Virus record (IMG/VR): IMGVR_UViG_3300046559_000436
Coordinates: 33,261-97,260 of that record
Source of the DNA: a virus
DNA: 64,000 bases
Direction: 5' to 3' (one strand)
The stretch's first letter is position 1; the number at the start of each line of letters is the position of its first letter. Positions 22,219 through 38,071 of the stretch are shown one piece after another. The translations under genes were made by a program, and so were the position numbers. The notes beneath the pieces were generated by a model. That model searched no databases. It had not been told where the DNA came from and worked only from the letters and a program-made list of their open reading frames with translations.

Positions 22219-24396
22219 ATGACCGCCACCTTCCTCGGACGGACCCGAGTCGGAAGCACGTTCCTGCCCGAGCTGCCGCCGGACTGGCCGGTAGCGTTCG
22301 ACTATGAGACCGCTGGGCTGTACCCGGACGGAGACTCCGGTACCAAGACTCAGCCCGCATCCCCGGAGGGCAGGGCGTCGGCCCTGGCCATCGCGTGGTT
22401 CGACCCCGAGACCGGCGAGCTGGTCTCACACGCCTTCCCGTTCGACCAGGGCAAGATTGCCGGGAAGCCGGGTAGGGCGATCCGGGACCCCGAGACCGGT
22501 CGACAGAGCTTCTCTCCGATCCAGGCCACCCTGGACTTCGACAACCCCAACCTGGAACCGCAGTGGTACGTTGAGCTGATGGCCTGGCTCAGCCGTCGAC
22601 GGTATCTGGTGGCCCACAACGCCAAGTTCGACATGGCGGTCGCTCGGATCGGTCTGCGTGCGGACGCAGGGGGGTTCGGCGGAGAGGAGGGCCTCGGCGG
22701 GACCGAGCTGGATCAGGAAGGGACCTACATCTATGACACGATGCTGTCCCAGATGCTGTTGGCCCCTCTGGACATGCCGTCGCTGAAGCCTACGGCCAAG
22801 AAGCTGTGGGGTGACGACGAGACCGAGGAGCTGGAAGCCCTCAAGAAGGGGCTGAAGGCCAACGGCGTGGGGCTCGGTAAGCGATACGACCTGGTGGACT
22901 GGCCGATCCTGGCCAAGTACGCGGCCAAGGACGCCGAACTTACCATTCGCTTGCACCAGGTTCAGATGAACGCGGTCGACGACGAGATTGCGCCCCCGCT
23001 GTACGAGAGCCTGCTCGAAGACGACCTGCAGACCATGCGGGTACTGTACCGGATGGAGAAGCGCGGGCTGCCCTTCCTGAAGGAAGACGGTTTGGAGGTT
23101 GCCGAGGAGCTGCGTAAGCACGCCAAGATGGTGGCCAGCACGATGCCATTCGATCCCAGCAAGCTCGCTCAGGCCATCCGGTTCTTCTACGGGTGGAAGT
23201 GCAGCAACTCCGAAATCAGGTCCCAGAAGTTCCTGACCGGGGACGAGCGGGACTGGTCGAAATTCCTGTGCGACAAGAGTTGCGAGGAGTGCCAGGGGAA
23301 GAACGGGCTCGGACTGGAGCCGACCAGCCGGACCGAGAAGCGCGGCGACCCCCAGCTCAATCAGGCCGAGATCGACAAGCTGGCCAAGCAGGGTCAGCCC
23401 TGGATCAAGGAGTTCCAAGAGTACGTCAGCTGCATGTCGGCCATCGCCAAATGGTACGACGGCTGGTCCCTTCGAGTGGGCAAAGACGGTCGTCTTCGGC
23501 CGGTTTTCAAGCAAGGCAAGCAGGAGACCGACAAGTCGGGCGGAGCCAAGAGCAAGGAGGGCGGCACCAAGACGGGTCGGCTGGCGGTGGAGCGGGTGCA
23601 GATCCAGGCGGTTCCCCGTAAGACGCACCTGCCCATCCCGGCCCCCCACCCCAAGAAGCTGATCCGGCCGACCAGCGGCAAGGTCGTGTGGGAATCGGAC
23701 CTGCCCAACGGTGAGATGAGAATCGTCACTGTGATGTCCAACTGCAACGCGATGTGGGACATCATCGACAAGCTGGACCGAGAAAAGGACGCCAGCGGCA
23801 TTCACGGTCTGGTGTGCACCCAGATGTTCGGGTTGACACCTGAGGACGAGGATTTCCCCACCTTCAAGCAGGTGTCGAAGTGCATCGGTTTCGGGACGGT
23901 GTTCCAGTCCGGACCGCAGACCCTGGCTGACCAGGTCTACCAGCAGTGCGGCGTGAAGTTCAAGGTTCAGGAGATGAAGGACTTCATCGCGGACTTCCGG
24001 GGTAAGTTCCCGGAGATCCAGCAACTGTCCGACCTGGCGGTGAAGAAGGCCGATCAGTGGCGCGGGCTGGGTTACGTCACACTGATCAACGGTCGCAACC
24101 GTTGGTTCGAGCCACACGAGCGGGTGGCCACCTGCGCGATGTCGTCGGTTATTCAGGGTTCGCTCGCTGAGACCATGAAGACGTCCATGCGACAGGTGGA
24201 GGCTACTTACCCGGGCATCCTGATCAACCAGGTACACGACTCGGTATGGGTGGAGGTGGACGACAGCCCGGAAGGCGAGGCGCTGGCTTGGGACGTGGCG
24301 CGGATGGTTCAGAACACCTTCGAGGAGACGTTCGACGTACGCGAGCGACCCCGGATGAAGTTCCCGGTGACTCCGGAACGGCTTGACCTGAAGTGA
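22219..24396 (+). CDS. Family A DNA polymerase with 3'-5' exonuclease
   Basis: 725 residues from ATG 22219 (AAGGGAG upstream). Exonuclease motifs: AFDYETAGL (D28, E30), LVAHNAKFDMAV, and KYAAKDAELT. Polymerase motif C is INQVHDSVWVE. Motif A reads SDLPNGEMRIV instead of the usual DYSQIELR, and the motif B region VSKCIGFGTVFQSG lacks the usual NF/YG. Altered active-site motifs fit the polymerase class associated with 2-aminoadenine (DpoZ-type), but this needs alignment. It is the only replicative polymerase visible. Confidence 0.88.
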   Translation: MTATFLGRTRVGSTFLPELPPDWPVAFDYETAGLYPDGDSGTKTQPASPEGRASALAIAWFDPETGELVSHAFPFDQGKIAGKPGRAIRDPETGRQSFSPIQATLDFDNPNLEPQWYVELMAWLSRRRYLVAHNAKFDMAVARIGLRADAGGFGGEEGLGGTELDQEGTYIYDTMLSQMLLAPLDMPSLKPTAKKLWGDDETEELEALKKGLKANGVGLGKRYDLVDWPILAKYAAKDAELTIRLHQVQMNAVDDEIAPPLYESLLEDDLQTMRVLYRMEKRGLPFLKEDGLEVAEELRKHAKMVASTMPFDPSKLAQAIRFFYGWKCSNSEIRSQKFLTGDERDWSKFLCDKSCEECQGKNGLGLEPTSRTEKRGDPQLNQAEIDKLAKQGQPWIKEFQEYVSCMSAIAKWYDGWSLRVGKDGRLRPVFKQGKQETDKSGGAKSKEGGTKTGRLAVERVQIQAVPRKTHLPIPAPHPKKLIRPTSGKVVWESDLPNGEMRIVTVMSNCNAMWDIIDKLDREKDASGIHGLVCTQMFGLTPEDEDFPTFKQVSKCIGFGTVFQSGPQTLADQVYQQCGVKFKVQEMKDFIADFRGKFPEIQQLSDLAVKKADQWRGLGYVTLINGRNRWFEPHERVATCAMSSVIQGSLAETMKTSMRQVEATYPGILINQVHDSVWVEVDDSPEGEALAWDVARMVQNTFEETFDVRERPRMKFPVTPERLDLK

Positions 24397-24454
24397 CCAG
24401 CCCCTAGCGGGCCAGATCACCCCGCTGACCCCCGGAGGGCCTACAGTATGGGCA

Positions 24455-24484
24455 TTGCTCCGGGGGAAAGCATGGTAGTACAAT
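24455..24484 (+). promoter_or_regulatory. Promoter of 24538 operon
   Basis: TTGCTC, 18-base spacer with GGAAAG, then TACAAT. Leader begins with GGTGGGGC/GCCCCACC hairpin, then GAGGGAG. Confidence 0.78.
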
Positions 24485-24537
24485 GGTGGTACACGGTGGG
24501 GCACGCGGCCCCACCCCGAACCCGAGAGGGAGTGATT

Positions 24538-24714
24538 ATGGACAGCAGATGGACCACGAAGGATGACCTGGACGCGGCTTTCTACGGGATCGTGGGGCCG
24601 CAGGTCAACCGCATCGTTAGCATCAAGATCAGCGGTCTCATGAAGATCAGCGCGGCGGGCGGCCCCAGGCCGGACACCCGAGTGCCGGTGATGGTGGGTC
24701 AGCTGTGGAGATGA
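24538..24714 (+). CDS. Small protein before SsgA-like gene
   Basis: 58 residues, ATG 24538 8 bases after GAGAGGGAG. Contains DDLDAAFYGIVGPQVNRIV and a basic, Gly/Pro-rich tail. First gene of the operon with the SsgA-like gene. No family recognised. Confidence 0.5.
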   Translation: MDSRWTTKDDLDAAFYGIVGPQVNRIVSIKISGLMKISAAGGPRPDTRVPVMVGQLWR

Positions 24715-25205
24715 CCAGCAAGGACGTCAAGGGAAAGACCACGGGCGTGCAGACCGAAGTGACCCTTCCGGTCAATCTGACCTTCAGCTATGATCCTGAG
24801 GACCCCTTCGCGTTCTACATGAAGTTCAACCCCAGCCGTTTCAATGAAGAGGTCCAGTGGGTGGGTTCCCTGGACCTCCTGCGCCAGGGTGTTCACGCTC
24901 CGGCCGGTCTTGCCGACATCCAGGTCTACCCAATCGACAAGGGTCAGATCGCGATTCGGCTCGAAGCCGAGGTAGGCCATTCGACCACCCGAGTGGCGGC
25001 CAAGGACATCAAGGCGTTCATCAGCGCCATCGACGAGGAGGAATCAGTGTCCAGTGTGACGATCGGTGAGGCGGTCGAGATTACTCTGGAGCAGTTTCTG
25101 GAGGATCTCGGCCTCTACCCCTATGACAACGGCCCGTCTCTCCCGCCGGGGTGGTGCCCGAACTGTATGCGAGTCCACTCCGGCAACGGATGCGGTGACG
25201 CCTGA
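24711..25205 (+). CDS. SsgA-like sporulation/cell-division protein
   Basis: 164 residues; ATG overlaps the previous stop (ATGA). Residues 15 to 115 match the SsgA/SsgB pattern: LTFSYDPEDPFAFYMKF, VQWVGSLDLLRQGVHAPAG, ADIQVYP, IAIRLEAEVG and DIKAFISAID. SsgA-like proteins occur in sporulating actinomycetes and localise FtsZ and septa. This one has a C-terminal extension ending CPNCMRVHSGNGCGD, a possible zinc site absent from host proteins. A phage copy may alter host septation or sporulation; that effect is inference. Confidence 0.7.
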   Translation: MTSKDVKGKTTGVQTEVTLPVNLTFSYDPEDPFAFYMKFNPSRFNEEVQWVGSLDLLRQGVHAPAGLADIQVYPIDKGQIAIRLEAEVGHSTTRVAAKDIKAFISAIDEEESVSSVTIGEAVEITLEQFLEDLGLYPYDNGPSLPPGWCPNCMRVHSGNGCGDA

Positions 25206-25432
25206 TGGGCTGGGGCAGCGCGGGGGCGACGATCTTCGACCCTACGATCGAGGCTCTGGTCAAATCCGGGACCACTGACGAGGTGCTGTTCGACACGGCG
25301 GTGAACCTCATCAACAACCTCCAGAGCGAGGACTGGGACACCGAGGGAGAGTCCCTGGATCACTTCAAGGACAATCCGGTGATCGTCCGGGCGTTCGCCA
25401 GCCTCGGAATCCGGTTGCACCACAGCACCTAG
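25205..25432 (+). CDS. Small acidic protein
   Basis: 75 residues, coupled to the SsgA-like gene by TGATG. Helical and acidic (LINNLQSEDWDTEGESL). No family recognised; operon position suggests a shared task. Confidence 0.5.
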   Translation: MGWGSAGATIFDPTIEALVKSGTTDEVLFDTAVNLINNLQSEDWDTEGESLDHFKDNPVIVRAFASLGIRLHHST

Positions 25433-25434
25433 TA

Positions 25435-25464
25435 TTGATCCGCAGCAAAACGCTGTGATACAAT
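25435..25464 (+). promoter_or_regulatory. Promoter of 25471, leaderless
   Basis: TTGATC, 18-base spacer with GCAAAA and GTGA, then TACAAT. ATG is 6 bases downstream. Confidence 0.85.
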
Positions 25465-25470
25465 TGTCCT

Positions 25471-25968
25471 ATGGTCAGGACAGTGAACGTAGGTAGAGCG
25501 GCGAATGACAAAGTCGGGGTCCCCGAGGGGCAATGGGTCTCGGTGGACCCCGGCGACATTCACGTCGGGGTATGCTTCTGGAACGGCCCCGAGCCGCAGT
25601 GGGCCAGGGAATTCCGGCCAGACCAGTTCGTAGACTGGCTCGTGGATCAGATGCAGGCCGGTGAGATCGAGCTGGTCGTGTACGAGATCTTCATGCTTTA
25701 TGGTCAGAAAGCACACCAGCAGACAGGGTCCACCTTTGGGACCGCTGAATTGATAGGCGTCATGCGTCACTTGTGCCGAAGGGCGGAGGTGCCGTTTGTG
25801 GGCTATCAAGCCAGCGCCCACAAAGGTCTGTACAAGTGGGAGAAGTTCAAGCCACCGCACAAATCTTTGAGAGACTGGGTCAGCTACGGGCACGGTTCGC
25901 ACACGAAAGACGCAGAATGCTGCGGCTTTTACCACCTGATCAAGAATGGAGTGATTAAGAATGGCTGA
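25471..25968 (+). CDS. RuvC-like Holliday junction resolvase
   Basis: 165 residues. WVSVDPGDIHVGVCFW is the first RNase H-fold strand with acidic residue, LVVYEIFMLYG carries the second acid, and SHTKDAECCGFYHL the C-terminal acidic helix. This arrangement is that of phage RuvC-type resolvases that resolve branched DNA before packaging. Promoter geometry implies translation from a leaderless mRNA. Confidence 0.75.
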   Translation: MVRTVNVGRAANDKVGVPEGQWVSVDPGDIHVGVCFWNGPEPQWAREFRPDQFVDWLVDQMQAGEIELVVYEIFMLYGQKAHQQTGSTFGTAELIGVMRHLCRRAEVPFVGYQASAHKGLYKWEKFKPPHKSLRDWVSYGHGSHTKDAECCGFYHLIKNGVIKNG

Positions 25969-26311
25969 GAAGGCGCCTTTCAAGAAGAGCGGCGGGCTGT
26001 GGCACTCCCCCCCGAAGGAGAAGGACCTGAACAACCCGGATGTCCCTGTCCACAAGCGGCCCACGCTTGAGTGGCGCGAGGTCAAGGAGTGGCGTGAGAC
26101 CATGCTGGTGATCGGCCAGCAGCGCGGTCGGTCGGCGGCCTTCTTCCTGCTGTGCGGGGGCGGCGGGGCTGGCACGGACAGCTACCCGATGTTCATGTCG
26201 GACGCCACCGAGATGATGAAGACGGCGACCATCGTTCAGGGGACCGTCACTGGTCGTTGGACCATCGTCAAGAAGGGTCAGAACTACGGGCTGAAGTACC
26301 TGGGAGAGTGA
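25961..26311 (+). CDS. Protein of unknown function
   Basis: 116 residues overlapping the resolvase gene by 8 bases. Basic N-terminus, central Gly-rich LLCGGGGAGT, beta-rich C-terminus (TVTGRWTIVKKGQ). No family recognised. Confidence 0.5.
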   Translation: MAEKAPFKKSGGLWHSPPKEKDLNNPDVPVHKRPTLEWREVKEWRETMLVIGQQRGRSAAFFLLCGGGGAGTDSYPMFMSDATEMMKTATIVQGTVTGRWTIVKKGQNYGLKYLGE

Positions 26312-26314
26312 AAG

Positions 26315-26794
26315 ATGGGTGGGAATCAGTACGTGAGGTTCCTGATCAAGGACGCAGCGGCGAAGCTCGACGAGGTGGTCCACGCTCTAGGGACCATCCA
26401 GTCGGACTTCGCTCAGGCAGGTGAGGTATCTGCCTCGCATCGGGCCACGAAGCTGGCAAACGACGTCATAGCGTACAAGGAGTCATTGATGAGCAAGATC
26501 GGCGATGAGCTTGGCGGCGAGGTGGTGGAGAAGATGCGCCAGGCCACTGGGGCCAAGCCCAGACCGCAGCGGCCCTGCATGTTCTACCTGATGCGCAAGC
26601 ACGACCACTCCGGTGTGAGTGGCACGGGGGTGGTGGCCGAGGGTATCGAGTTCTCGGACGGCCGGGTGGCCATGCGATGGGTGACCCGGATGGCAGGATC
26701 GACCTGCACCTACGACTCGATTGACGATGTGATCGAGATCCATGGTCACGGCGGAAGCACGGAGGTGATCTATGGCCGACCTGGCCGGGATTAA
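26315..26794 (+). CDS. Protein of unknown function
   Basis: 159 residues. N-terminal helical region (AAAKLDEVVHALGTIQSDF), then a beta-rich domain with MFYLMRKHDHSGVSGTG. Overlaps the next small gene by 23 bases. No family recognised. Confidence 0.5.
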   Translation: MGGNQYVRFLIKDAAAKLDEVVHALGTIQSDFAQAGEVSASHRATKLANDVIAYKESLMSKIGDELGGEVVEKMRQATGAKPRPQRPCMFYLMRKHDHSGVSGTGVVAEGIEFSDGRVAMRWVTRMAGSTCTYDSIDDVIEIHGHGGSTEVIYGRPGRD

Positions 26795-26918
26795 GGAGCT
26801 GGTCGTGACGGTGTGCGACGCGTTCGGGATCACTCGGGACGAGTTTCTGAAAATCGTCAAAGAAGAGGCCGAAGATATGGGCCTCACGATTCTGGAAGAG
26901 GTGCTGGCGCAATGTTGA
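26772..26918 (+). CDS. 48-residue helical protein
   Basis: ATG 26772 with GGAGGTGAT upstream. IKELVVTVCDAFGITRDEF suggests an acidic helical protein ending in Cys. Its stop overlaps the start region of the GGDEF gene, so they are coupled. Confidence 0.5.
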   Translation: MADLAGIKELVVTVCDAFGITRDEFLKIVKEEAEDMGLTILEEVLAQC

Positions 26919-27484
26919 ACTCTGATGTGATGGCGTGGGGGTCCCTGGTCACCTGCGTCACAACGTACGTCGGGTACCAGGCAGGGTCGTTGAAGGCCCG
27001 GGTCGTGGCGGACCGGGAGTACCGGGACCCCGAGACCGGGATGCTGACTCGGAAGGGCTTCGAACATCGCGCCCTGAAGATGCTGGCCAAGAGCTGCAAC
27101 TACATCGTGGTGATGGTCGACCTCAACGACCTGAAAAAGGTCAACGACGAGTTCGGCCACGCGGCGGGCGACATGTTCATCCGCGAGCAGGCTGGTCGAA
27201 TCAGTGACTGGGCCCGTAGGAAGAACGGGGTGGCGGCCAGGCTCGGCGGGGACGAGTTCGTGGTGATCGTCACCGGCTCTGCCGACACCACGGCGCTCAA
27301 GGAAGATCTGAACCGACCGATCTGCTGGGAGGGCGAGACCAGGTACTGGACCGCCAGCGTCGGATTCTCCTGGATCTCGATCGGGGTGCTCAAGAGCGAC
27401 CGGAAGAACTGCCTGTCCAAGGCTCTCGGCAAGGCTGACCAGGACATGTACAAGAACAAGGGCGAGGGGCGCAGCCGCCGCTAG
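26912..27484 (+). CDS. GGDEF diguanylate cyclase
   Basis: 190 residues from ATG 26912. Residues 8 to 27 may be a membrane segment (AWGSLVTCVTTYVGYQAG). The GGDEF domain is complete: DPETGMLTRKGFEHR, VVMVDLNDLKKVNDEFGHAAGD and ARLGGDEFVVIV (GGDEF at 112 to 116), then SVGFSW. No RxxD inhibitory site five residues upstream of GGDEF. It should make c-di-GMP from two GTP. In Streptomyces c-di-GMP holds BldD in its repressing form, so a phage enzyme may keep the host vegetative. A longer upstream frame is a shadow of the coupled gene. Confidence 0.85.
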   Translation: MLNSDVMAWGSLVTCVTTYVGYQAGSLKARVVADREYRDPETGMLTRKGFEHRALKMLAKSCNYIVVMVDLNDLKKVNDEFGHAAGDMFIREQAGRISDWARRKNGVAARLGGDEFVVIVTGSADTTALKEDLNRPICWEGETRYWTASVGFSWISIGVLKSDRKNCLSKALGKADQDMYKNKGEGRSRR

Positions 27485-27514
27485 TTGCGCCAGCGCAAAA
27501 CGCCGTGATAAAAT
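27485..27514 (+). promoter_or_regulatory. Promoter of 27558
   Basis: TTGCGC, 18-base spacer with GCAAAA and GTGA, then TAAAAT. A CGCCGGA/TCCGGCG hairpin follows in the leader. Confidence 0.87.
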
Positions 27515-27557
27515 AGTCTCAGACGCCGGAGGGTCCGGCGGTCGGAAGGAGCACGGG

Positions 27558-27860
27558 ATGGCGCGGTTCAAGGTCGAGGTCGAGGTGTCCAGCCGAGGTC
27601 TGGCGGTGGACGTCGAGCACGGCATCCGGGAGATCCTGTCGGATCACAACTACAACCCGCAGAACCTGCAGGTGAAGACGATGCCGGAACCGACGCGGCT
27701 GGCGGACTTCCCGTCGCAGAACGTCCGGCGACGGATCGGGGACGAGACCTACCGGGTGGTGATTCCCGGCCTCTTCAAGGAGGGCAGGGAGGTCACGGTC
27801 CCCATCTGGGAGACGGACGTCGACCTGGAGCTGCTGGACCACTACCTCAACGGCGGCTGA
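27558..27860 (+). CDS. Small beta-rich protein
   Basis: 100 residues (MARFKVEVEVSSRGLAVDVE...). Alternating strands and basic loops; AAGGAG upstream. It precedes the purZ-like gene by a hairpin-containing gap and may share its transcript. No family recognised. Confidence 0.5.
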   Translation: MARFKVEVEVSSRGLAVDVEHGIREILSDHNYNPQNLQVKTMPEPTRLADFPSQNVRRRIGDETYRVVIPGLFKEGREVTVPIWETDVDLELLDHYLNGG

Positions 27861-27876
27861 CGAAAGCCGGATGCGG

Positions 27877-27911
27877 GGGGTCGATCTCTCAAATGTGAGG
27901 GGTCGACCCCC
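27877..27911 (+). terminator. Hairpin upstream of purZ-like gene
   Basis: GGGGGTCGA and TCGACCCCC pair around a 17-base loop. No T-run; may be a partial terminator or a mRNA-stability element before the purZ-like gene. Confidence 0.5.
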
Positions 27912-27951
27912 TGGGTCTTACTTTCCGAACAGACCTAAGAGGAGACAGAAG

Positions 27952-29148
27952 ATGACCGGGAAGTTGATCGTCGTAGCGGACGGGTTCTACGGAAGCTGCG
28001 GCAAGGGCCACGTCACCGAGATGCTGTTGAACTCGGACGACAGCCTGGTTCAGGCGAACGTTCGAGTGGGCGGCCCGAACGCAGGGCACATCGTGTACGG
28101 GCCGCAGTGCCCGAGCTGGTGCGGGATCGGCGACGAGGGCCCGAGCGATGTCCCGTGGGGGGCGGAGCCCGAGGAGGACCACCTCGTGGTGGGCGGAATC
28201 CGTCTGCACCCCTGGAAGCTGCGTCAGGTGCCGGTCGGGGCGGTAGTGAACCACTACTGCAAGTTGGTGATCGCGGCCGGGTCGGAGATCCACCTGCCGA
28301 CGCTGCACGAGGAGATCAAGGCGCTGGAGGACGCTGGCCACCGCGTCATCAACCGGCTCTACATCGACTCGGCGGCTACGGTTCTGACTGAGCGTCACAA
28401 GGAGCAGGAGAAGCACCGCGACCTGACCGGCAAGCTCGGTTCGACGGCCAAGGGGATCGGCGCCGCTCGGGCGGACCGGATCTGGCGGACGGCGGAGACC
28501 TGGGGCGAGCACGTCAAGGACCACAACGATTCCCAGTGGACGACGGACAACACGGCGGACTACCTGTACCAGCTGATGAGCCGGGCCGGTGGCACGGTGA
28601 TCATCGAGGGCACCCAGGGGTTCGGGCTGGGTCTGCACACCGAGAACTACCCGCAGGTGACCAGCACGGATTGCCGGGCGGTGGACTTCCTGGCACAGGC
28701 CGGACTGTCGCCCTGGCACAAGGCGGTCGAGAAGTTCGAACCGTGGGTGGTGCTGCGGACCAGGCCGATCCGGGTGGCCGGGAACAGCGGCCCGATGAAG
28801 GGTGAGACCACCTGGGAGGAGATCGGGCTTCGGCCCGAGAAGACCACGGTCACGCGGAAGGTGCGCAGGGTCGGCGAGTTCGACGCCGGGCTGGCGAACC
28901 GGGCGATCGACGCCAACGGCGGTCACAACGTGGCCAGGGTGGCGCTCACGATGGTGGATCACGTGATCCCGGAGCTGGCGGGGGCGGACTTCATCGAGGA
29001 CCTGACGCCCGAGGTGGTGACGAGGCTGAAGGGGTTCATCGAGGACATCGAGATCAAGCTCAGCGGCCAGGTGATCAGCTGGGTGGGGACGGGGCCGGAC
29101 ACCGGACTGTGGCTGGTGGACGAAAAGGGCGACCGACTGCCCTGGTGA
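27952..29148 (+). CDS. purZ: PurZ-like aminoadenylosuccinate synthetase
   Basis: 398 residues, close to PurA/PurZ length, ATG after AGGAGACAG. The N-terminal loop DGFYGSCGKGHVTEML aligns with the PurA loop GDEGKG but has Ser15 where PurA has its catalytic Asp, the change reported for PurZ enzymes. VGGPNAGHIVY provides the conserved His. IIEGTQGFGLGL and TSTDC match later substrate-binding loops. PurZ joins Asp to (d)GMP to make the precursor of 2-aminoadenine (Z). The next gene is MazG/MazZ-like, the usual partner. PurA-like activity on IMP cannot be excluded from sequence. Confidence 0.8.
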   Translation: MTGKLIVVADGFYGSCGKGHVTEMLLNSDDSLVQANVRVGGPNAGHIVYGPQCPSWCGIGDEGPSDVPWGAEPEEDHLVVGGIRLHPWKLRQVPVGAVVNHYCKLVIAAGSEIHLPTLHEEIKALEDAGHRVINRLYIDSAATVLTERHKEQEKHRDLTGKLGSTAKGIGAARADRIWRTAETWGEHVKDHNDSQWTTDNTADYLYQLMSRAGGTVIIEGTQGFGLGLHTENYPQVTSTDCRAVDFLAQAGLSPWHKAVEKFEPWVVLRTRPIRVAGNSGPMKGETTWEEIGLRPEKTTVTRKVRRVGEFDAGLANRAIDANGGHNVARVALTMVDHVIPELAGADFIEDLTPEVVTRLKGFIEDIEIKLSGQVISWVGTGPDTGLWLVDEKGDRLPW

Positions 29149-29159
29149 GGTAAGACCTG

Positions 29160-29185
29160 GGGCGGCTCCGGACGAGGAGCCGCCC
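29160..29185 (+). terminator. Hairpin between purZ- and mazZ-like genes
   Basis: GGGCGGCTCC pairs with GGAGCCGCCC around a 6-base loop; GTTCAGTAG follows. Likely partial terminator or RNA processing site. Confidence 0.6.
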
Positions 29186-29208: not shown

Positions 29209-29790
29209 ATGACGCAGTTCGAAGAGATGGCGGGTCCGATCGAGGTGGACGGCGTGCAGATCGCCGACCCCAAGGTTTCGGACTTCTTCAAGAGCGGGTT
29301 GAGGTTCGTCCGGACGGAAGGTCAGCCGGACGGTAGCGTGAAGTACTTCAGCGAGAAGACGCCGGACCCGCTGACGGCGTTCTCGGGGGCCACGCACATG
29401 ATCAGCAAGGAGGAAGCCGTGGATCAGCTGGGGTTGACCAAGGAGAGCGACGAGACGACGGAGAGGATCGCCGACCTGAAGGAGTGGTGGGTGGAGATGG
29501 CGTCCATGGACGTCGGGATGGTCGCCGAGAAGGCGGTGACGTACGGCAGCAACTCGCTGGAGCAGCTCGGTCGCAAGATGGCTCAGCTGGGCGGCCGGAA
29601 GGTGGTCAGCAGCGAGGAGGCGCAGGAGCTGGGCTGCTGGGTCTACCTGACCGGCAAGGTAGAGCGCTGGACCGACGCGGTGATGCGGGGGGAGCGCCCG
29701 AAGGACGACACTCTGACGGACATCATCGCGTACGCCACGATGGCCACGCGCATCCGTCAGGCCGGGGGGTGGCCGGACAGCCGGGGGTAA
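29209..29790 (+). CDS. MazG/MazZ-like nucleotide pyrophosphohydrolase
   Basis: 193 residues, GTAGAAGGAG upstream. The C-terminal half resembles all-alpha NTP pyrophosphohydrolases: MVAEKAVTYGSNSLEQLG, CWVYLTGKVERWTDAV and PKDDTLTDIIAYATMAT (acidic metal-binding positions E...DD...D). In Z-genome phages MazZ converts dATP/dGTP pools to dGMP, feeding PurZ. Adjacency to the purZ-like gene supports that role. The N-terminal 90 residues have no recognised function. Confidence 0.65.
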   Translation: MTQFEEMAGPIEVDGVQIADPKVSDFFKSGLRFVRTEGQPDGSVKYFSEKTPDPLTAFSGATHMISKEEAVDQLGLTKESDETTERIADLKEWWVEMASMDVGMVAEKAVTYGSNSLEQLGRKMAQLGGRKVVSSEEAQELGCWVYLTGKVERWTDAVMRGERPKDDTLTDIIAYATMATRIRQAGGWPDSRG

Positions 29791-30984: not shown

Positions 30985-30985
30985 G

Positions 30986-31225
30986 ATGCGCAAGATTGTC
31001 ATGGGCGCGGCTGCGATCGCGGCAGTTCTGAGCCTGGGCGCGTGCGGCGGACCGTCTGTGGACGGGACGGTGCAGTCCAAGTCGTCCCACCACGACAAGA
31101 AGGGTGACAGCTACACGGTCACCCTCAGGACCAGGGCTGGCAAGACCGCAACGCTGACGGTGTCGTCGAAGACGTTCAGGTCGTGCGACGTGGGCGAGAC
31201 CTACTCGAAGTGCCGGAAGGGCTGA
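30986..31225 (+). CDS. Lipoprotein
   Basis: 79 residues with MRKIVMGAAAIAAVLSLGACGG: basic start, hydrophobic core and lipobox LGAC. The mature part is small and beta-rich (YTVTLRTRAGKTATLTVSS). Expected on the outer face of the host membrane; phage lipoproteins of this kind can block superinfection, which is inference. Confidence 0.7.
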   Translation: MRKIVMGAAAIAAVLSLGACGGPSVDGTVQSKSSHHDKKGDSYTVTLRTRAGKTATLTVSSKTFRSCDVGETYSKCRKG

Positions 31226-31230
31226 CCGAA

Positions 31231-31608
31231 ATGAATGTCGAGATCACGACGTTCGGATTCCGGCACGGGGACCCTCCGGCCGCACACCTCACGCTGGACC
31301 TGAGGCAGCACTTCCGCGACCCGCACGTCAGCAAGGATCTGCGGTACAAGACTGCCGAGGACGCCGACGTTCGCGAGAACGTGCTGAAGACGCCGGGCGT
31401 GGAATTCCTGCTGGTCTCCGCGTCCTCGCTGGTGGAGGCATTCGCGCAGGACCCCAAAGACCACGACCTCAGGATCGCGGTCGGGTGCGCGGGCGGCAGG
31501 CACCGGGCGGCCACGGTCGGAATGACGCTGGCCGAGAGGCTGGAGGCGTGGGGGCACAAGGTGACCCTGACGCACCGGGACATCAAGAAGGGGGTCGTGG
31601 CGCGATGA
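31231..31608 (+). CDS. RapZ C-terminal-domain-like protein
   Basis: 125 residues from ATG 31231. TTFGFRHGDPPAAHLTLDLR, LRYKTAEDADV, IAVGCAGGRHRAATVGMTLA and VTLTHRDI match the C-terminal domain of RapZ (strand-FGxxHGxP, LRxxTG-like, GCTGGxHRS loop). In bacteria this half binds small RNAs and RNase E; the stand-alone form in phages is of unknown function. The CxGGxHR loop resembles a phosphate-binding loop. Confidence 0.75.
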   Translation: MNVEITTFGFRHGDPPAAHLTLDLRQHFRDPHVSKDLRYKTAEDADVRENVLKTPGVEFLLVSASSLVEAFAQDPKDHDLRIAVGCAGGRHRAATVGMTLAERLEAWGHKVTLTHRDIKKGVVAR

Positions 31609-32033: not shown

Positions 32034-32341
32034 TGGGAGTGCCGAGAAACCTGGACTCCGAAGGTGCGATCGTGGTAGTGAGCGGTAGCCACTCGTATTG
32101 CAACGGATGCGGCGAGGAGGTGTCGGACTGGGGTCCGAACCGCAAGAGGCACGTGGACGTGGCGGGTTACTCCGGACGACCGGGCGAGGGATGTCAGAAG
32201 AGGTTCGTCGGAAAGACGACGGACCAGCTGCATTTCGGGCCGGACGAGGTGGCGGGGGTGTGGAAGAACCTGCCGTTCGTGTGGCTGTACCTGCGACCGG
32301 AAGCCAACCCGCGACTGAGGGTCACCAAGGTGGGGTCGTAG
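32033..32341 (+). CDS. Protein of unknown function
   Basis: 102 residues, coupled by TGATG. SYCNGCGEEVSDWGPNRKRH gives a CxxC near the start, later GEGCQKRF. Possible zinc-binding. Last gene of this operon; a promoter follows 10 bases on. Confidence 0.5.
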   Translation: MGVPRNLDSEGAIVVVSGSHSYCNGCGEEVSDWGPNRKRHVDVAGYSGRPGEGCQKRFVGKTTDQLHFGPDEVAGVWKNLPFVWLYLRPEANPRLRVTKVGS

Positions 32342-32350
32342 CGACAGCGC

Positions 32351-32380
32351 TTGACGCAGGAGCAAACGCCGTAGTAAGAT
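32351..32380 (+). promoter_or_regulatory. Promoter of 32429
   Basis: TTGACG, 18-base spacer with GCAAAC and GTAG, then TAAGAT. Confidence 0.85.
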
Positions 32381-32428
32381 GGGTACAACAGCGGGGGGCC
32401 ACTCCGCTAGGAGCGAGGAGGATCTGAT

Positions 32429-32626
32429 ATGGGTTGGGGTCGTAAGAGCAGCGGTGACGAGAACCAGGGCTCTAAGGAGGCTGGGGAGGGTGCCGAGCGC
32501 GCGGGCGGCACGAACTGGTTCTCCAAGAAGGAGAACGCCGGAAGCAACAGCTCGTCGAGCAACGACGGGAAGGCCGGTTCGGGCGGCACGCTGAGTGACT
32601 CCGAGCTGGAGTCGAACGGCTGGTAG
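32429..32626 (+). CDS. Low-complexity Ser/Gly/Asn-rich protein
   Basis: 65 residues beginning MGWGRKSSGDENQGSKEAGE and dominated by Ser, Gly, Glu and Asn; probably disordered. A similar short MGW- protein is at 43623. GAGGAGG upstream. Function unknown. Confidence 0.5.
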   Translation: MGWGRKSSGDENQGSKEAGEGAERAGGTNWFSKKENAGSNSSSSNDGKAGSGGTLSDSELESNGW

Positions 32627-32640
32627 AACCCCGGCACAGG

Positions 32641-32664
32641 GTGGCCGGGGGAGACCCCGGCCAC
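32641..32664 (+). terminator. Hairpin with GAGA loop
   Basis: GTGGCCGGGG and CCCCGGCCAC are exact inverse copies around GAGA. No T-run; likely partial terminator or mRNA 3' end. Confidence 0.65.
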
Positions 32665-32702
32665 CCACGCGGTGTTAGAAAAATCACCAAGGAGGATCTT
32701 AT

Positions 32703-33587
32703 ATGGGCACGAAGCTCGTGTACATGGCCATGCCGCTCGATTTCACGACGGAGAGCGGCGACCGTCCGTTCGTGGACTTCGTCGAGAACGACCTGAAGGC
32801 CAGCAAGCACGTGGTGTACCGGCCGGACCAGAGCTTCACGTTCCAGAAGGGCACGGAGCCCAGCGAGGTGGTGCAGGCCGTCAACAACGCGGCCATCAAC
32901 GGGGCCAGCGGCATGGTGGCGTTCCTCCCGAAGGGGACGCAGACGATCGGGGTGCCGATGGAGATCCAGTCGGCGATCTCGGCTGGGAAGCCGGTCGTCG
33001 TGGTGACGGACCACTCGGACAGCTGGGTCGTGGCGGGCTGGACCAAGACGAACGGCGTGAAGGTGGTGGAATTCAACGCGAGCCAGATCCGAGGAGGGGT
33101 CGGCTGGTTGAACGAGACCATGAGCCACCGCGATGGGTGGACGTTCAAGCAACCCGTAGAGAACCCGGTCGTGTTCGAGGCCATGTCGGAGGACGCGGAA
33201 CTGCCGATCAGGGCATACGCGACGGACGCCGGGTTCGACCTGTACGTGTCGCGGAACACGTTCATCCCGGCCGGTGGGTTCGCGGACGTGCCGTGCGGGG
33301 TGGCCATGCAGATCAACGCCGGGGAGTGGGCGCTGATCACCGGACGCAGCAGCTCGATCAGGAAGAAGAAGCTCCACGTGATCAACGGCGTGATCGACGC
33401 CGGATACAGCGGAGAGCTGTTCGCGGGAGTGCAGAACCTGAGTTCGCACACGGTCACGATCACGAAGGGCGAGCGGGTGGCCCAGGTGATCCTGATGGGG
33501 GCGGCGGCCAACGGGAGGGCAGTAAGGTTCGGCAAGGTGGCACAGGCACCGCGTGGGAACAACGGCTTCGGAAGCAGCGGACGATGA
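32703..33587 (+). CDS. dut: Deoxyribosyltransferase-like/dUTPase fusion
   Basis: 294 residues. The N-terminal half (LVYMAMPLDF, KHVVYRPDQSF, AAINGASGMVAFLP, GVPMEIQSAISAGKPVVVV) resembles nucleoside 2-deoxyribosyltransferase-like folds. From about residue 165 all five dUTPase motifs appear: YATDAGFDLYV, GRSSSIRKK, GVIDAGYSGELFAG, KGERVAQVIL and RGNNGFGSSG. It should hydrolyse dUTP, and the N-terminal domain may sense or remodel nucleotides. AGGAGG upstream. The fusion is unusual; NDT activity is uncertain. Confidence 0.85.
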   Translation: MGTKLVYMAMPLDFTTESGDRPFVDFVENDLKASKHVVYRPDQSFTFQKGTEPSEVVQAVNNAAINGASGMVAFLPKGTQTIGVPMEIQSAISAGKPVVVVTDHSDSWVVAGWTKTNGVKVVEFNASQIRGGVGWLNETMSHRDGWTFKQPVENPVVFEAMSEDAELPIRAYATDAGFDLYVSRNTFIPAGGFADVPCGVAMQINAGEWALITGRSSSIRKKKLHVINGVIDAGYSGELFAGVQNLSSHTVTITKGERVAQVILMGAAANGRAVRFGKVAQAPRGNNGFGSSGR

Positions 33588-33847
33588 CCGGAGACGATGA
33601 GCAGTACGACTTCGGGTTCTACGTGGAGAAGATCGACCACGACGACTACGGCGAGAAGATGGCCGAGAGCCTGTGGAAGGTCAGCCTGCCCCATCAATGC
33701 GGCAGATGGCGGATCGACAACACCAACATCTACCTGGAGGGCAGCACGAAAGCGGAAGCGGTCGAGGAGCTGGAAGCATTCATCAGCCAGGCCAAGAAGG
33801 CCCTGGACGCGCTGAACCGGGGAGAAGAGCACGGAACTGACGACTGA
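33584..33847 (+). CDS. Small acidic protein
   Basis: 87 residues, ATG overlapping previous TGA. DDEQYDFGFYVEKIDHDDYG then basic middle and helical end with KAEAVEELEAFISQAKKAL. No family recognised. Confidence 0.5.
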   Translation: MTGDDEQYDFGFYVEKIDHDDYGEKMAESLWKVSLPHQCGRWRIDNTNIYLEGSTKAEAVEELEAFISQAKKALDALNRGEEHGTDD

Positions 33848-34015
33848 GTAGAGCGGAACCGGGTTGGCTGGGCTCGTCCGAACCGAAGGTTCGGGAGGGT
33901 TCGAGAACCCGGTTCCGATCAGGACCCATCGGTTCCGCCGGTGAGTTCCGATCGGAACCGGAAACGGAACTCGTTCGGCGCGAAGTGTCGGGCGGCCGGA
34001 ACTAAGGAGCAGAGG
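33848..34015. repeat. GGTTCC/GGAACC inverted-repeat cluster
   Basis: GGAACCGGGTT (33855) faces AACCCGGTTCC (33906) around CCGAACC GAA GGTTCGG, and GTTCCGATCGGAAC at 33945 is a perfect palindrome. The pentamer GGAAC/GTTCC occurs about a dozen times in 170 bases. No gene fits. Similar clusters lie at 7.3, 8.25 and 48.1-48.7 kb. Confidence 0.7.
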
Positions 34016-34216
34016 ATGAACAGTTCGGAACTGAACGACAGGGTAGCGGAACTGGAACGTTCCGCCGGAGGTCGGTTGGGCAAGGTTCTGCCGGTGAAGG
34101 TGCGGATCGCGGTCGGCGATCGGGTGATGGTCATGGACCTGGAACCCGGGATGCTGACCACGAAGGGCTGGGGTTCCGAACCGGAACCGGCCGTCATCTT
34201 GCTGGACCTGACCTGA
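34016..34216 (+). CDS. Small protein of unknown function
   Basis: 66 residues from ATG 34016 (AAGGAG upstream). MNSSELNDRVAELERSAGGR then VRIAVGDRVMVMDLEPGML, a possible small OB or beta barrel. Codons favour GAA/GTT here as in the flanking repeat cluster. Coupled to the next gene by TGATG. Confidence 0.5.
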   Translation: MNSSELNDRVAELERSAGGRLGKVLPVKVRIAVGDRVMVMDLEPGMLTTKGWGSEPEPAVILLDLT

Positions 34217-34431
34217 TGGACCTGATCGAGGTCGAACAGGAGAAGGACGAGTGGGAGAAGGGGCCGTCGTTCCGGTGGCGGGTGACCGTACTGGGGACGG
34301 AGTCTCACAAGACGGTATGGGCGGAAACGGAGGAAGAGGCCCTCAAGCAGGCCAAGTTCCTGGTAGGGGAGGCCCTGGTCAAGATGATCGGGTGCGACTC
34401 GTGGTGCTGTTACGACGACGGAGAGGGATGA
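34216..34431 (+). CDS. Small acidic protein
   Basis: 71 residues, coupled by TGATG. DLIEVEQEKDEWEKGPSFRW and ETEEEALKQAKFLVGEAL, ending with CDSWCCYDDGEG. No family recognised. Confidence 0.5.
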   Translation: MDLIEVEQEKDEWEKGPSFRWRVTVLGTESHKTVWAETEEEALKQAKFLVGEALVKMIGCDSWCCYDDGEG

Positions 34432-34432
34432 G

Positions 34433-34720
34433 ATGGACATCAAGATCTCGATCGGGTTCGGGCGAAGGGGCCAGCACTCGATGAGGGTTCAGAACCAGAA
34501 CCTGGAAACTCAGGTGCAGGTTCTGACGGGAGCGTTGACCAAGGTCAACGAGGAGAACAAGGAGTTGAAGGAGCAGCTGTCGGAAGCCCTGCGGGAGAGG
34601 GTGGCCAAGGGGCACCGGATGACCAGCCAGGGCCTGAGGCTGGTTAAGGGACCGGTCGTGAGAGCGGTGGAAGGCGTGCCGAACCGATACCAGATCACGG
34701 AAGGAGACGAGGGGGCGTGA
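34433..34720 (+). CDS. Coiled-coil protein
   Basis: 95 residues. Residues 20 to 60 are heptad-like (NLETQVQVLTGALTKVNEEN and KELKEQLSEALRERVAKG). AGGGATGAG upstream. Overlaps the next GTG start. No family recognised. Confidence 0.5.
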   Translation: MDIKISIGFGRRGQHSMRVQNQNLETQVQVLTGALTKVNEENKELKEQLSEALRERVAKGHRMTSQGLRLVKGPVVRAVEGVPNRYQITEGDEGA

Positions 34721-35097
34721 TCGGGCAGGGGTACCGACCGAAGGTCGGCGAAGAGCTGGTGGTGGTGGTCCCGAGCTACCACCGGCGGGAGCCGGGGGTG
34801 TCGACGGCAAAGGTGGTGAAGGTAGTCACGGAGTGGGTGTACTTCGATAACGTACCGGGGCTGACCGAGCCGAAGTTTCGGATCCGGACGCAGTGCACCG
34901 AGAACCGGCTCAACTACAACGCCAGGTACCTGACGAAGGAGCAGCACGAGACCGAGAGAAGGAGGTCGGAGGCGGAGAAGACGCTGAGAGAGTACAAGGC
35001 GGTGCCGGACCCGTGGTCGGCACTGTTCAAGGATGACGAGAAACTCATCAAGCTGGCGGACGCGGTCAGGAAGATCATGGAGGAGGAAAACGGATGA
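34717..35097 (+). CDS. Protein of unknown function
   Basis: 126 residues, GTG overlapping the previous TGA. N-terminal beta barrel-like region (KVGEELVVVVPSYHRREPG, KVVTEWVYFDN) and a C-terminal charged helix (TERRRSEAEKTLREYKAV). Coupled to thyX by ATGA. Confidence 0.5.
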   Translation: MIGQGYRPKVGEELVVVVPSYHRREPGVSTAKVVKVVTEWVYFDNVPGLTEPKFRIRTQCTENRLNYNARYLTKEQHETERRRSEAEKTLREYKAVPDPWSALFKDDEKLIKLADAVRKIMEEENG

Positions 35098-35891
35098 AGA
35101 TCGTTGAGCCCGTGGTGCGGATCATCTCGAAGCCCGAGATCAACTGGGACGAGATCGAGGCGCATCTGGTGGGGGACGTGGGGGCGGCCGACGGGGGGCG
35201 GTGGACATGGGATCGGGAGGAGAACGGGTCGGCGGATTCGGAGAGCCTGATCGAGTTCGCAGGAAGGAAGTGCTACCGGAGCTACGGGGTGGGGTTGAAC
35301 CCGAACATCAAGAAGGTGCGAGAACACCAGGACGAGTACCTCAATAACCTGATCAGATCGGGCCACGGGAGCGTGTTGGAACACGCCAATTACACGCTGG
35401 TGCTGCACAACGTCAGCAGGGTGCTGACACACGAACTGGTCAGGCACCGGGCAGGGACGGCGTACAGCCAGGAGAGCCTGCGGTACGTCAGGCTGACGGA
35501 GATTCCGATGTGGCTGCCGGAGTGGGTCAAGGAGGACCCGGACGCCATGACGAAGGTGGTCGAGCTGGTCGAGCAGATGGAGGAGTTCCAGGCATGGGGG
35601 GCGGAGCACTGGGGGCTGGACTCGCCCGGGACGGAGTTCCGGACGAAGAAGGAGGTGACGTCGTTCATGCGTCGGCTGGCGCCGGAGGGACTGGCCACGA
35701 GCGTAGTGATGACGGCTAACGTGAGAGCGATCAGGCACATCATCGAGATGCGGACGGCAAAGGGGGCGGAGGAGGAGATCCGGGAGGTGGCCGGGAAGAT
35801 CGGCAAGCTGATGGCGTGGGAGGCCCCGCAGCTGTTCGGGGACTACTTGGTCAACGACGGGGAGTGGCTGTCAGACAACAAGAAGGTGTAG
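35094..35891 (+). CDS. thyX: Flavin-dependent thymidylate synthase ThyX
   Basis: 265 residues. The ThyX signature RHRxGxxxSxxSxR is present as RHRAGTAYSQESLR (117 to 130), preceded by GHGSVLEHANYTLVL, a conserved FAD/dUMP region. Late NVRAIRHIIEMR binds the cofactor in known structures. It makes dTMP from dUMP with methylenetetrahydrofolate and FAD, feeding phage DNA synthesis along with the dUTPase. ATG overlaps the previous TGA. A tRNA promoter follows directly. Confidence 0.95.
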   Translation: MKIVEPVVRIISKPEINWDEIEAHLVGDVGAADGGRWTWDREENGSADSESLIEFAGRKCYRSYGVGLNPNIKKVREHQDEYLNNLIRSGHGSVLEHANYTLVLHNVSRVLTHELVRHRAGTAYSQESLRYVRLTEIPMWLPEWVKEDPDAMTKVVELVEQMEEFQAWGAEHWGLDSPGTEFRTKKEVTSFMRRLAPEGLATSVVMTANVRAIRHIIEMRTAKGAEEEIREVAGKIGKLMAWEAPQLFGDYLVNDGEWLSDNKKV

Positions 35892-35920
35892 TTGCGCAAA
35901 GCGCAGCTTAAGTGTAAGAT
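35892..35920 (+). promoter_or_regulatory. Promoter of tRNA-Met/tRNA-Pro
   Basis: TTGCGC, 17-base spacer with GCGCAGC, then TAAGAT, 6 bases before the mature 5' end of tRNA-Met. Confidence 0.75.
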
Positions 35921-35925
35921 GGGGT

Positions 35926-36000
35926 GGCTGAGTGGAGCAGGTCGGTTAGCTCGCTGCGCTCATAACGCAGAGGTCGTGGGTTCGAATCCCACCTCAGCCA
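35926..36000 (+). tRNA. tRNA-Met(CAT)
   Basis: Acceptor GGCTGAG/CTCAGCC, D arm GAGC/GCTC, anticodon arm CTGCG CTCATAA CGCAG, T arm GTGGG TTCGAAT CCCAC. G1-C72 indicates an elongator or Ile2-type rather than initiator tRNA. CCA not encoded. Confidence 0.93.
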
Positions 36001-36058
36001 CGAAGGCCAGCCGGAGCCTTTGGCCTTTATTAAAGAAACACATTGAAATCCGGCACTT

Positions 36059-36131
36059 CGGATTGTGGCGCAGCTGGTAGCGCACCCGCTTTGGGAGCGG
36101 GTGGCCGTCGGTTCGAATCCGACCAATCCGA
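36059..36131 (+). tRNA. tRNA-Pro(TGG)
   Basis: Acceptor CGGATTG/CAATCCG (C1-G72 typical of tRNA-Pro), anticodon arm CCCGC TTTGGGA GCGGG with anticodon TGG, T arm GTCGG TTCGAAT CCGAC. Reads CCA. Confidence 0.93.
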
Positions 36132-36140
36132 CGTATCGAG

Positions 36141-36176
36141 AAGGCCCCCGTCGAAGATAGTGATGGGGGCCTTTTT
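36141..36176 (+). terminator. Terminator after tRNA pair
   Basis: AAGGCCCCC pairs with GGGGGCCTT and a run TTTTT follows: a canonical rho-independent terminator. Confidence 0.92.
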
Positions 36177-36189
36177 CGTAGAGGGGAGC

Positions 36190-36219
36190 TTGACACACAG
36201 GAAAATCATGAGATAGAAT
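36190..36219 (+). promoter_or_regulatory. Promoter of 36260
   Basis: TTGACA, 18-base spacer with GGAAAAT and GAGA, then TAGAAT. Confidence 0.85.
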
Positions 36220-36259
36220 AGTGATATCAGGCAGAGCGAGGCACCCGAAAGGCGAAGAG

Positions 36260-36466
36260 ATGGCCACGACGGTCAAGGAACTGATAGAAGAGCTGCAGGG
36301 GCTTGCCCGAGAGCACGGCGAGGACCTGGAGATAGTGACCAGGACCTTCAGCCACGGGGCGGACGACTGGGACTACCCGGAGGGGTGCTCGGCGTACGTG
36401 GAGGATTTCAAAGCGCCCTGGTGGCATGGGACCACCGGCAAGAAGCTGGTATTCGACACTCCGTGA
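36260..36466 (+). CDS. Small acidic protein
   Basis: 68 residues from ATG 36260. VKELIEELQGLAREHGEDLE forms a helix, followed by an aromatic strand (ADDWDYPEGCSAYVEDF). Resembles small phage proteins that regulate host enzymes, but no family recognised. Confidence 0.5.
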   Translation: MATTVKELIEELQGLAREHGEDLEIVTRTFSHGADDWDYPEGCSAYVEDFKAPWWHGTTGKKLVFDTP

Positions 36467-36482
36467 AGGAGAAGGAGCGGCA

Positions 36483-36713
36483 ATGAAGACATGGGTCATC
36501 GTAAGAGAGCTGGCCAACGGAAAGCTGATCGCGGAGGGGCCGGACGGGAGGGTGTGGGGAAGCTATGATCGGACGATCCCGGCGGACGGGTCCAAGGATG
36601 AGAACTGGACCCACGAACTGGTGACGGACATCAGCGGGCTGGTGAGGGCGTCGGTGGTCCGGATGACCAAGGACGGCGGCCACGCGGAATCGCGGTTCGA
36701 ACGCAAGATCTGA
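36483..36713 (+). CDS. Small beta-rich protein
   Basis: 76 residues, AAGGAG upstream. WVIVRELANGKLIAEGPDGR and VTDISGLVRASVVRM suggest a small barrel. No family recognised. Followed by a GC hairpin. Confidence 0.5.
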   Translation: MKTWVIVRELANGKLIAEGPDGRVWGSYDRTIPADGSKDENWTHELVTDISGLVRASVVRMTKDGGHAESRFERKI

Positions 36714-36722
36714 GTTGAACAA

Positions 36723-36747
36723 GGGGGCCGCCTGGGAGGGCGGCCCC
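36723..36747 (+). terminator. Hairpin before purB-like gene
   Basis: GGGGGCCGCC pairs with GGCGGCCCCC around a short loop. No T-run, so termination may be partial. Confidence 0.65.
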
Positions 36748-36775
36748 CGGCAACGCGACCAAAGGAGTGGGCATA

Positions 36776-38071
36776 ATGATCGAGCGATACAGCACGGACC
36801 GAATGCGCGTGATCTGGTCGGACGCTGGGACCATGTCACTGTGGTCGACGGTGGAGCGGGCCATGGCCGAGGCGCAGGGCGCACCGGAGCACGTGGTGAA
36901 GGAGCTGTGGGAGAAGCGGCTGCCGATGGCTGAAGCCGGAGTGGTGGAGTGGCGCTGTCGCGAAGCGACAACCCGCCATGACGTGGTGGCGTTCGTGGAG
37001 CTGATGAGAGAATCGGTCAGCCTGGAAGCGGCCAGGTGGGTGCACAGGGGGGTGACCAGCTCGGACCTGGTGGACTCGGCACAGGCGATTCGGGTCAAGG
37101 AGTCGCTGGGGATGATCGCGAAGGCTGGCCAGGGACTGACGAACGAGCTGGGGGCGCTGGCCCAGCGATGGTCGAGCCAGCCGTGGATCGGGCGGACGCA
37201 CGGCCAGTGGGCGCAGGAGACGACGTTGGGTCACCTGTGGTCGAACCGGGCCATGGCGGTCAACAAGGCCGTTCTCAAGGTCAGGGCCGCCATGGGCGAG
37301 CAGATGGTGATGATGTCGGGGCCGGTGGGGGACTACAAGACGCTGGGAGGTGAGAAGGAAGGGAAGGCAGCCGAACAGGCGTTCGGGCGACTGGTGAAGA
37401 TGCCAGTGGCCGCGAAGTCGACGCAGGTCGTTGACAGGGGCGGGCTGGCGGAGGCCATGTGGGCGTGCGAGAGGCTGATGGCCGCGATAGCACAGGTGGC
37501 GACGGACGTGCGGCTGATGGGGCAGAGCGAGGTGGGGGAGGTCGCCGAAGCATTCGCCGCGAAGCAGCGGGGGTCGTCGATCATGGCCCACAAGAACAAC
37601 ACGGTCGGGGCGGAGAACCTGATCGGGCTGGAGCGGGTGGTAAGGGCCAACGTGATGCCGGTGGTGGAGGGCGTGGCGACGTGGGGGATGCGGGACATCA
37701 CACACTCGGCGGTGGAAAGGGTGTGCGTGCCGCTGGTGCTGGGGACGACTGAATACGGGGCGCTGAGGTGCGCCAAGCTGATGGCGGGACTGGTCGTCCG
37801 ACCTGAAAGGGCGATGGACAACATCGACAAGACGGGCGGGGTGCTGGAGGCGGGGGGGCTGGTCACGTGGCTGACGGAGAACGGGGCGGGACCGAAGGAA
37901 GCGTGGGAGGTGGTCCACGAGGCAAGTAAGGAGGTGGAGGTGGGCGACCTGTGGGTGGGGTCCAGCCCGATGGACCTCAAGCAGATGACGCAGCGGATGG
38001 TCAACAAGAAGGTCAAGAACAACGAGGCCGGTTGGTCGGAGTTTAAGGGAAACTGGGCGGAGAAGCAATAG
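36776..38071 (+). CDS. purB: Adenylosuccinate lyase (PurB)-like
   Basis: 431 residues, the usual PurB length, ATG 36776 after AAAGGAG. Conserved regions: TRHDVVAFV (His68), HRGVTSSDLVDSAQ, IGRTHGQWAQ (His142) and the superfamily signature loop GSSIMAHKNN (266 to 275; usually GSSxMPxKxN, so Pro is Ala here). PurB removes fumarate from succino-AMP/GMP compounds. With the PurZ-like synthetase it could complete dZMP formation without the host enzyme. Known Z-phages are generally described as using host PurB, so this is a notable addition. Confidence 0.9.
   Translation: MIERYSTDRMRVIWSDAGTMSLWSTVERAMAEAQGAPEHVVKELWEKRLPMAEAGVVEWRCREATTRHDVVAFVELMRESVSLEAARWVHRGVTSSDLVDSAQAIRVKESLGMIAKAGQGLTNELGALAQRWSSQPWIGRTHGQWAQETTLGHLWSNRAMAVNKAVLKVRAAMGEQMVMMSGPVGDYKTLGGEKEGKAAEQAFGRLVKMPVAAKSTQVVDRGGLAEAMWACERLMAAIAQVATDVRLMGQSEVGEVAEAFAAKQRGSSIMAHKNNTVGAENLIGLERVVRANVMPVVEGVATWGMRDITHSAVERVCVPLVLGTTEYGALRCAKLMAGLVVRPERAMDNIDKTGGVLEAGGLVTWLTENGAGPKEAWEVVHEASKEVEVGDLWVGSSPMDLKQMTQRMVNKKVKNNEAGWSEFKGNWAEKQ

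Follow-up and report, generated by a model that had tools for sequence, protein, structure and literature searches.

A candidate 2-aminoadenine nucleotide module with its own PurB-like lyase in a PurZ0-type actinophage

Introduction

Which enzyme converts 2-amino-2'-deoxyadenylosuccinate (dSMP) to dZMP in phages with 2-aminoadenine (Z) in their DNA, the adenylosuccinate lyase (PurB) of the host or one encoded by the phage? The question is raised by virus record IMGVR_UViG_3300046559_000436 of the IMG/VR database, in which a purZ-like and a purB-like gene lie in one region. Bases 33,261–97,260 of this 97,260-base record, hereafter the window (64,000 nucleotides), were analyzed, and the remaining 33 kb were also scanned for DatZ. 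The region of interest runs from window position 22219, the start of a DNA polymerase gene, to 38071. With a probability of roughly 0.78, it appears to belong to a Hiyaavirus-related actinophage of the PurZ0 type and to form its Z-DNA nucleotide module, including a phage PurB. Gene identities, catalytic residues, phylogeny, gene order and co-occurrence were observed directly and are described below.

The open papers of 2025–2026 leave the conversion of dSMP to dZMP to host PurB (PMC12884076, PMC12783734). A "bacterial adenylosuccinate lyase" is named for this step in PMC12783734, and PurB is unmentioned in PMC12884076, though the model phage of that study, Ghobes, carries an annotated PurB-like gene. 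The PurZ0 phages studied use a DmtZ/DutZ enzyme set, and PurZ phages mostly use DatZ (PMC12884076).

Results

Identification of purZ0 and a PurB-like lyase

On sequence evidence, the gene at 27952 is a purZ of the GTP-type subgroup PurZ0 and not a purA. Its ATG is preceded by an AGGAGA ribosome-binding site, and the product passes the NCBIfam PurZ model NF038379 (320.5 bits, 9.6e-96; cut-off 300). Upon alignment with nine other PurZ proteins, Ser15 in the loop YGSCGKG was seen to replace the catalytic Asp of PurA, as pointed out in the original prediction, an earlier reading of the letters alone. The loop is GSEAKG in the other aligned PurZ0 proteins and GSTGKG in classical PurZ. Asp336, in an LTMVD motif where PurA has its guanine-binding motif, is retained here and in other PurZ0 proteins, and the motif preceding this position is absent from the ATP-type PurZ of S-2L, phiVC8 and SH-Ab 15497. 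The closest solved structure is 7VF6, the PurZ0 of Gordonia phage Archimedes. Fifty-seven proteins were placed in a quick maximum-likelihood tree, which separated PurA, PurZ and PurZ0, with PurA split off at 99% support in the Shimodaira–Hasegawa-like approximate likelihood ratio test and the PurZ0 group at 85%; the window protein was placed with Hiyaavirus and environmental relatives (98%). The clustering proposed earlier as a check, PurZ as opposed to host PurA, was thereby decided for PurZ0, and placement in PurA was excluded. The window PurZ0 would probably form dSMP from dGMP with GTP. Some 30 residues, two of them Cys, are inserted in it (residues 50–85; window 28099–28206); this insert is shorter in Galactica and Keanu and found in no other PurZ protein aligned.

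The window lyase is PurB-like, and conversion of dSMP to dZMP is proposed from its sequence. A full-length lyase gene had been noted about 7 kb from purZ and lies 7.6 kb beyond the purZ0 end. Among 12 families, TIGR00928 scored highest, with a lead of 145 bits (271.5 bits, 1.2e-80), and the protein falls in the Lyase_1 superfamily (PF00206, 115 bits; cut-off 27). Alignment to solved PurBs spans most of its length, and the catalytic and signature residues H71, H93, H145, S270, S271, K276, N278 and E283 are kept. The 434-codon frame is open with normal GC content by codon position (0.64, 0.46 and 0.88), and the ATG at 36776 is the likelier start, given the better ribosome-binding site ahead of it (AAAGGA).

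The window PurB groups with Hiyaavirus-like PurBs (86%), far from every sampled host enzyme. With a first sampling of 60 cellular PurBs, the phage PurBs stood on one side of a 99% branch. The single phage clade implied by this branch failed in a larger tree with actinobacterial PurBs, which gave two changes and placed the PurB of locus L085 beside one actinobacterial group. A single origin of the phage PurBs is unsupported, and at least the L085 PurB looks to be of separate origin in this tree. A phage-specific signature (Pro186 and loss of His148) was also discarded: it seemed to set the phage proteins apart from the 80 nearest cellular ones but failed once 30 actinobacterial PurBs were added, as Pro186 occurs in 16 of these and His148 is retained in only 15.

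Recurrence of phage PurB with purZ0

Homologues were counted in a database of 50,697 phage records, of which 136 actinophage matches form the purZ0 phage set. The window PurB is matched by 29 records, including 11 purZ0 phages of Streptomyces and Gordonia; several of the remaining matches are unannotated "phage" records and may be bacterial DNA. PurB is thus found in 11 of 136 purZ0 records and 18 of 50,561 others (Fisher p 1e-21, related records not being independent). A Lyase_1 gene of PurB type was present in 21 of 39 longer purZ0 records surveyed and in none of 50 control records, which were GC-rich viral records sharing an arbitrary 16-base word (a ThyX-selected control set held too few contigs and was replaced by this one). 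Retrieval with the PurB query alone yielded five IMG/VR viral contigs, all with purZ0. PurB-like genes are annotated in Streptomyces phages Galactica, Keanu, Hiyaa and Spocter and in Gordonia phages. The original premise that Z-phages generally rely on host PurB agrees with the open papers but needs qualification, in that roughly half of the longer purZ0 records surveyed carry a PurB-type lyase.

A search of IMG/VR found 304 purZ0 relatives, and the best 80 of these loci were inspected and form the basis of all locus counts. purB lies within 10 kb of purZ0 in 32 of the 80. The order purZ0, unnamed gene, purB was observed in nine loci (L065, L067, L068, L072, L073, L082, L087, L088 and L090), and in all of these except L073 and L082 dmtZ follows purB with overlapping start and stop codons. 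These loci are taken as one lineage because all members included in the PurZ tree fall in a single clade. In other loci, purB is 2–8.5 kb downstream or 7–10 kb upstream of purZ0, or on the opposite strand; since it is kept at such varied positions, function is favored over inertia.

The Gordonia PurB-like proteins are short, at 377 aa (L004, 8090–9223, minus strand) and 365 aa (L005, 9078–10175, minus strand). They are without much of the C-terminal part, have Tyr for the conserved His at H93 and are regarded as putative lyases.

PurB normally acts at two steps of purine synthesis. A phage copy kept for burst size could boost purines in general, producing AMP through cleavage of 5-aminoimidazole-4-(N-succinylcarboxamide) ribonucleotide and adenylosuccinate, with an incidental link to purZ0. 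Both normal roles would suit such a booster, as would the ordinary catalytic residues kept in the phage PurB and the annotated purB of Microcystis phage MaAM05, which is not in the genera listed with purZ. We nevertheless consider it unlikely, because PurB is strongly associated with purZ0, the two genes form an operon with overlapping ends in one lineage, and no other purine biosynthesis gene was recognized among the scanned window genes.

DmtZ-DutZ fusion and polymerase

The open reading frame at 32703 joins a domain resembling nucleoside deoxyribosyltransferases (PF05014) to a dUTPase-like domain (PF00692), and the same fusion is present in Wayne, Galactica and Keanu. All six DmtZ residues discussed in PMC12884076 are kept (Y7, D13, P41, N61, E87 and W108). 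In PurZ0 phages, DutZ hydrolyzes dATP and dGTP, while DmtZ hydrolyzes dAMP and can transfer its deoxyribose phosphate to the Z base (PMC12884076). By analogy, the window fusion is predicted to hydrolyze dATP and dGTP and to hydrolyze or transfer dAMP, activities known only from that paper. This fusion and the DpoZ-like polymerase were overlooked in the original prediction, which had correctly reported no DatZ in the window; extending the search to the rest of the genome, as it suggested, also gave none, with no HD domain at E ≤ 1 and no DatZ-profile match across the 97-kb record. DatZ is expected to be absent because the phage is of the PurZ0 type, in which DmtZ-DutZ is the known counterpart.

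The polymerase at 22219 is probably DpoZ-like and of the PurZ0-phage type, its best NCBIfam match being NF038381 (phage_DpoZ_2) with 243 bits versus 75 bits for PolI. ThyX, a flavin-dependent thymidylate synthase, would supply dTMP and is not Z-specific.

The unnamed gene after purZ0

A gene does follow purZ0, as originally described, but its proposed MazG/MazZ identity found no support. The 29209 protein had no match in Pfam, NCBIfam or PHROG, profile comparison gave none to DUF5664, and two structure searches of solved folds returned nothing at E < 1, DCTPP1/RS21-C6 appearing at chance level only. By sequence, the gene is a member of a separate purZ0-linked family. A family member stands directly after purZ0 in 75 of the 80 loci and DUF5664 fills the same slot in the other 5, none of the loci having both or neither. 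A tblastn search with the family consensus matched 31 of the phage records, all purZ0 phages; they comprise all purZ0 actinophages except those of Arthrobacter, and no further record. The core is modeled as four helices (predicted local distance difference test score 91.8), and the invariant residues of the family (K108, Y112, E140, K150, R153, D167 and D171) may resemble those of small helical nucleotide hydrolases. The protein probably performs a nucleotide-pool job equivalent to that of DUF5664.

Evidence against a Z-DNA module with phage PurB

Several observations weigh against the proposed reading. The window lyase fails the TIGR00928 equivalog cut-off (271.5 versus 326.2 bits), its signature loop is SSIMAHKNNT where SSAMPHKRNP is usual, and its gene lies 3.2 kb beyond dmtZ-dutZ, outside any tight operon. 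The polymerase does not pass the curated DpoZ_2 model (243 versus 350 bits). Among Arthrobacter purZ0 phages, Wayne has no annotated PurB and five Arthrobacter-type records were negative; purB is therefore dispensable in some hosts.

The low family score and altered loop (A274, N277, T279), together with the long branch of the window PurB in the tree, would be compatible with a lyase that has decayed or acts on another substrate, host PurB performing the step. Such a loss or change of function is very unlikely, as the frame is open with normal codon-position GC and all listed catalytic residues are present; T279 is also found in 15 of 30 actinobacterial PurBs, so this change is tolerated. The polymerase score would fit a phage whose genes yield some dZTP while its genome remains mostly adenine. 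This is equally improbable, given that the dATP-removing fusion and the whole PurZ0 set match characterized PurZ0 phages (PMC12884076). DpoZ_2 is also the best-fitting model for the polymerases of related purZ0 phages, and those of Hiyaavirus, including Galactica and Keanu, score 184–202 bits, likewise under the cut-off. Sequence, phylogeny and gene context together give good support to a Z-genome pathway that includes a phage PurB.

Other features of the window

The window is probably part of a Streptomyces phage. Its DNA similarity to Hiyaavirus phages is almost nil, and a search of plasmids for the region gave no match. Coordinates of the genes discussed, and of others nearby, are collected in Table 1.

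Table 1 Features of the window, with coordinates counted from its first base.
Feature	Position	Strand	Basis or remark
Family A DNA polymerase, probable DpoZ of PurZ0-phage type	22219–24396	+	NF038381
SsgA-like protein	24705–25205	+	PF04686, 62.9 bits
GGDEF (diguanylate cyclase) domain	26813–27484	+	87 bits; RLGGDEF motif intact
purZ0, predicted 2-amino-2'-deoxyadenylosuccinate synthetase (dGMP + Asp to dSMP)	27952–29148	+	NCBIfam NF038379, Ser15, tree, 7VF6
Uncharacterized purZ0-linked helical protein	29209–29790	+	Core residues 81–190 (29449–29778)
RapZ C-terminal domain, stand-alone	31183–31608	+	PF22740, 94 bits
DmtZ-DutZ fusion: predicted dAMP hydrolase/transferase domain and dATP/dGTP (dUTPase-fold) hydrolase domain	32703–33587	+	PF05014 and PF00692
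ThyX, flavin-dependent thymidylate synthase	35094–35891	+	TIGR02170, 118.9 bits (cut-off 87.9)
Two tRNA genes (Met, Pro)	35926–36132	+	
purB, adenylosuccinate-lyase-like	36767–38071 (probable start 36776)	+	TIGR00928, PF00206
FtsK/SpoIIIE-like protein	46211–48076	-	PHROG 1358

The SsgA-like protein belongs to a family that controls cell division and sporulation in Streptomyces; it had no tblastn match in the 50,697 phage records, and a phage copy appears rare. No actinobacterial host was found among the genera of phages matching the GGDEF protein. Both genes may act on host development. The two tRNA genes lie between thyX and purB, with four more at 11–17 kb.

Discussion

In the proposed pathway, DutZ would convert dATP and dGTP to dAMP and dGMP, removing adenine and feeding PurZ0, and DmtZ would destroy dAMP or use it to salvage the Z base into dZMP. 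The unnamed protein perhaps helps to lower dATP and yield dGMP. PurZ0 would join Asp to dGMP, probably with GTP, and the resulting dSMP would be converted by phage PurB to dZMP. Host kinases would then produce dZTP for insertion by the DpoZ-like polymerase, with ThyX adding dTMP. We infer each of these enzyme activities, and likewise Z in the virion DNA.

The original description of dZMP synthesis as self-contained would hold at most from dGMP to dZMP. Beyond dZMP it is overstated, because no dZMP kinase encoded by the phage was recognized, although no systematic search for one was made. A wider proposal, to which we give somewhat less than even odds, is that PurZ0 phages own the lyase step through PurBs adapted to the 2-amino-deoxy substrate, and that the unnamed gene encodes an undescribed nucleotide enzyme replacing DUF5664, together forming a pathway independent of host PurB.

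Since the pathway has been described before and relatives carry annotated PurB-like genes, the system does not count as new in kind. Two elements are undescribed in the open papers: a phage PurB that recurs within the PurZ0 module, and the unnamed gene exclusive to purZ0 phages. Because many related phages have this lyase too, the window illustrates an under-described variant well and is no isolated case. If many PurZ0 phages carry their own lyase, the step was probably a bottleneck or one that host enzymes handle poorly, with consequences for host range and for making Z-DNA in other cells. The unnamed gene, positionally interchangeable with DUF5664, offers itself as a candidate for a new nucleotide enzyme.

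Comparison with known systems

The classical PurZ phages S-2L, SH-Ab 15497 and phiVC8 share with the window a PurZ with Ser for Asp and the same chemical step. Their PurZ belongs to the other subgroup, and they carry DatZ with MazZ or DUF550, none of which was found in the window. The PurZ0 phages Ghobes and Archimedes of Gordonia and Wayne of Arthrobacter are closer, having PurZ0, DutZ, DmtZ and a DpoZ-type polymerase (PMC12884076). Ghobes and Archimedes also have an annotated PurB-like gene, although Gordonia PurBs are shorter than the window PurB (365–377 aa, Tyr at H93) and DmtZ and DutZ are separate in Ghobes and fused in the window. In Wayne, DUF5664 occupies the slot of the unnamed gene, and no PurB is annotated. 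The Hiyaavirus phages of Streptomyces (Hiyaa, Keanu, Galactica and Spocter) differ from the window in genome size (81–83 kb versus a 97-kb record), in a longer unnamed protein and in a PurB only about 36% identical. Their PurZ0 is about 50% identical to that of the window, and they share its gene order, the unnamed gene behind purZ0, the DmtZ-DutZ fusion and an annotated PurB-like gene; in Galactica and Keanu the shared order runs helicase, polymerase, purZ, unnamed gene, dmtZ-dutZ and purB.

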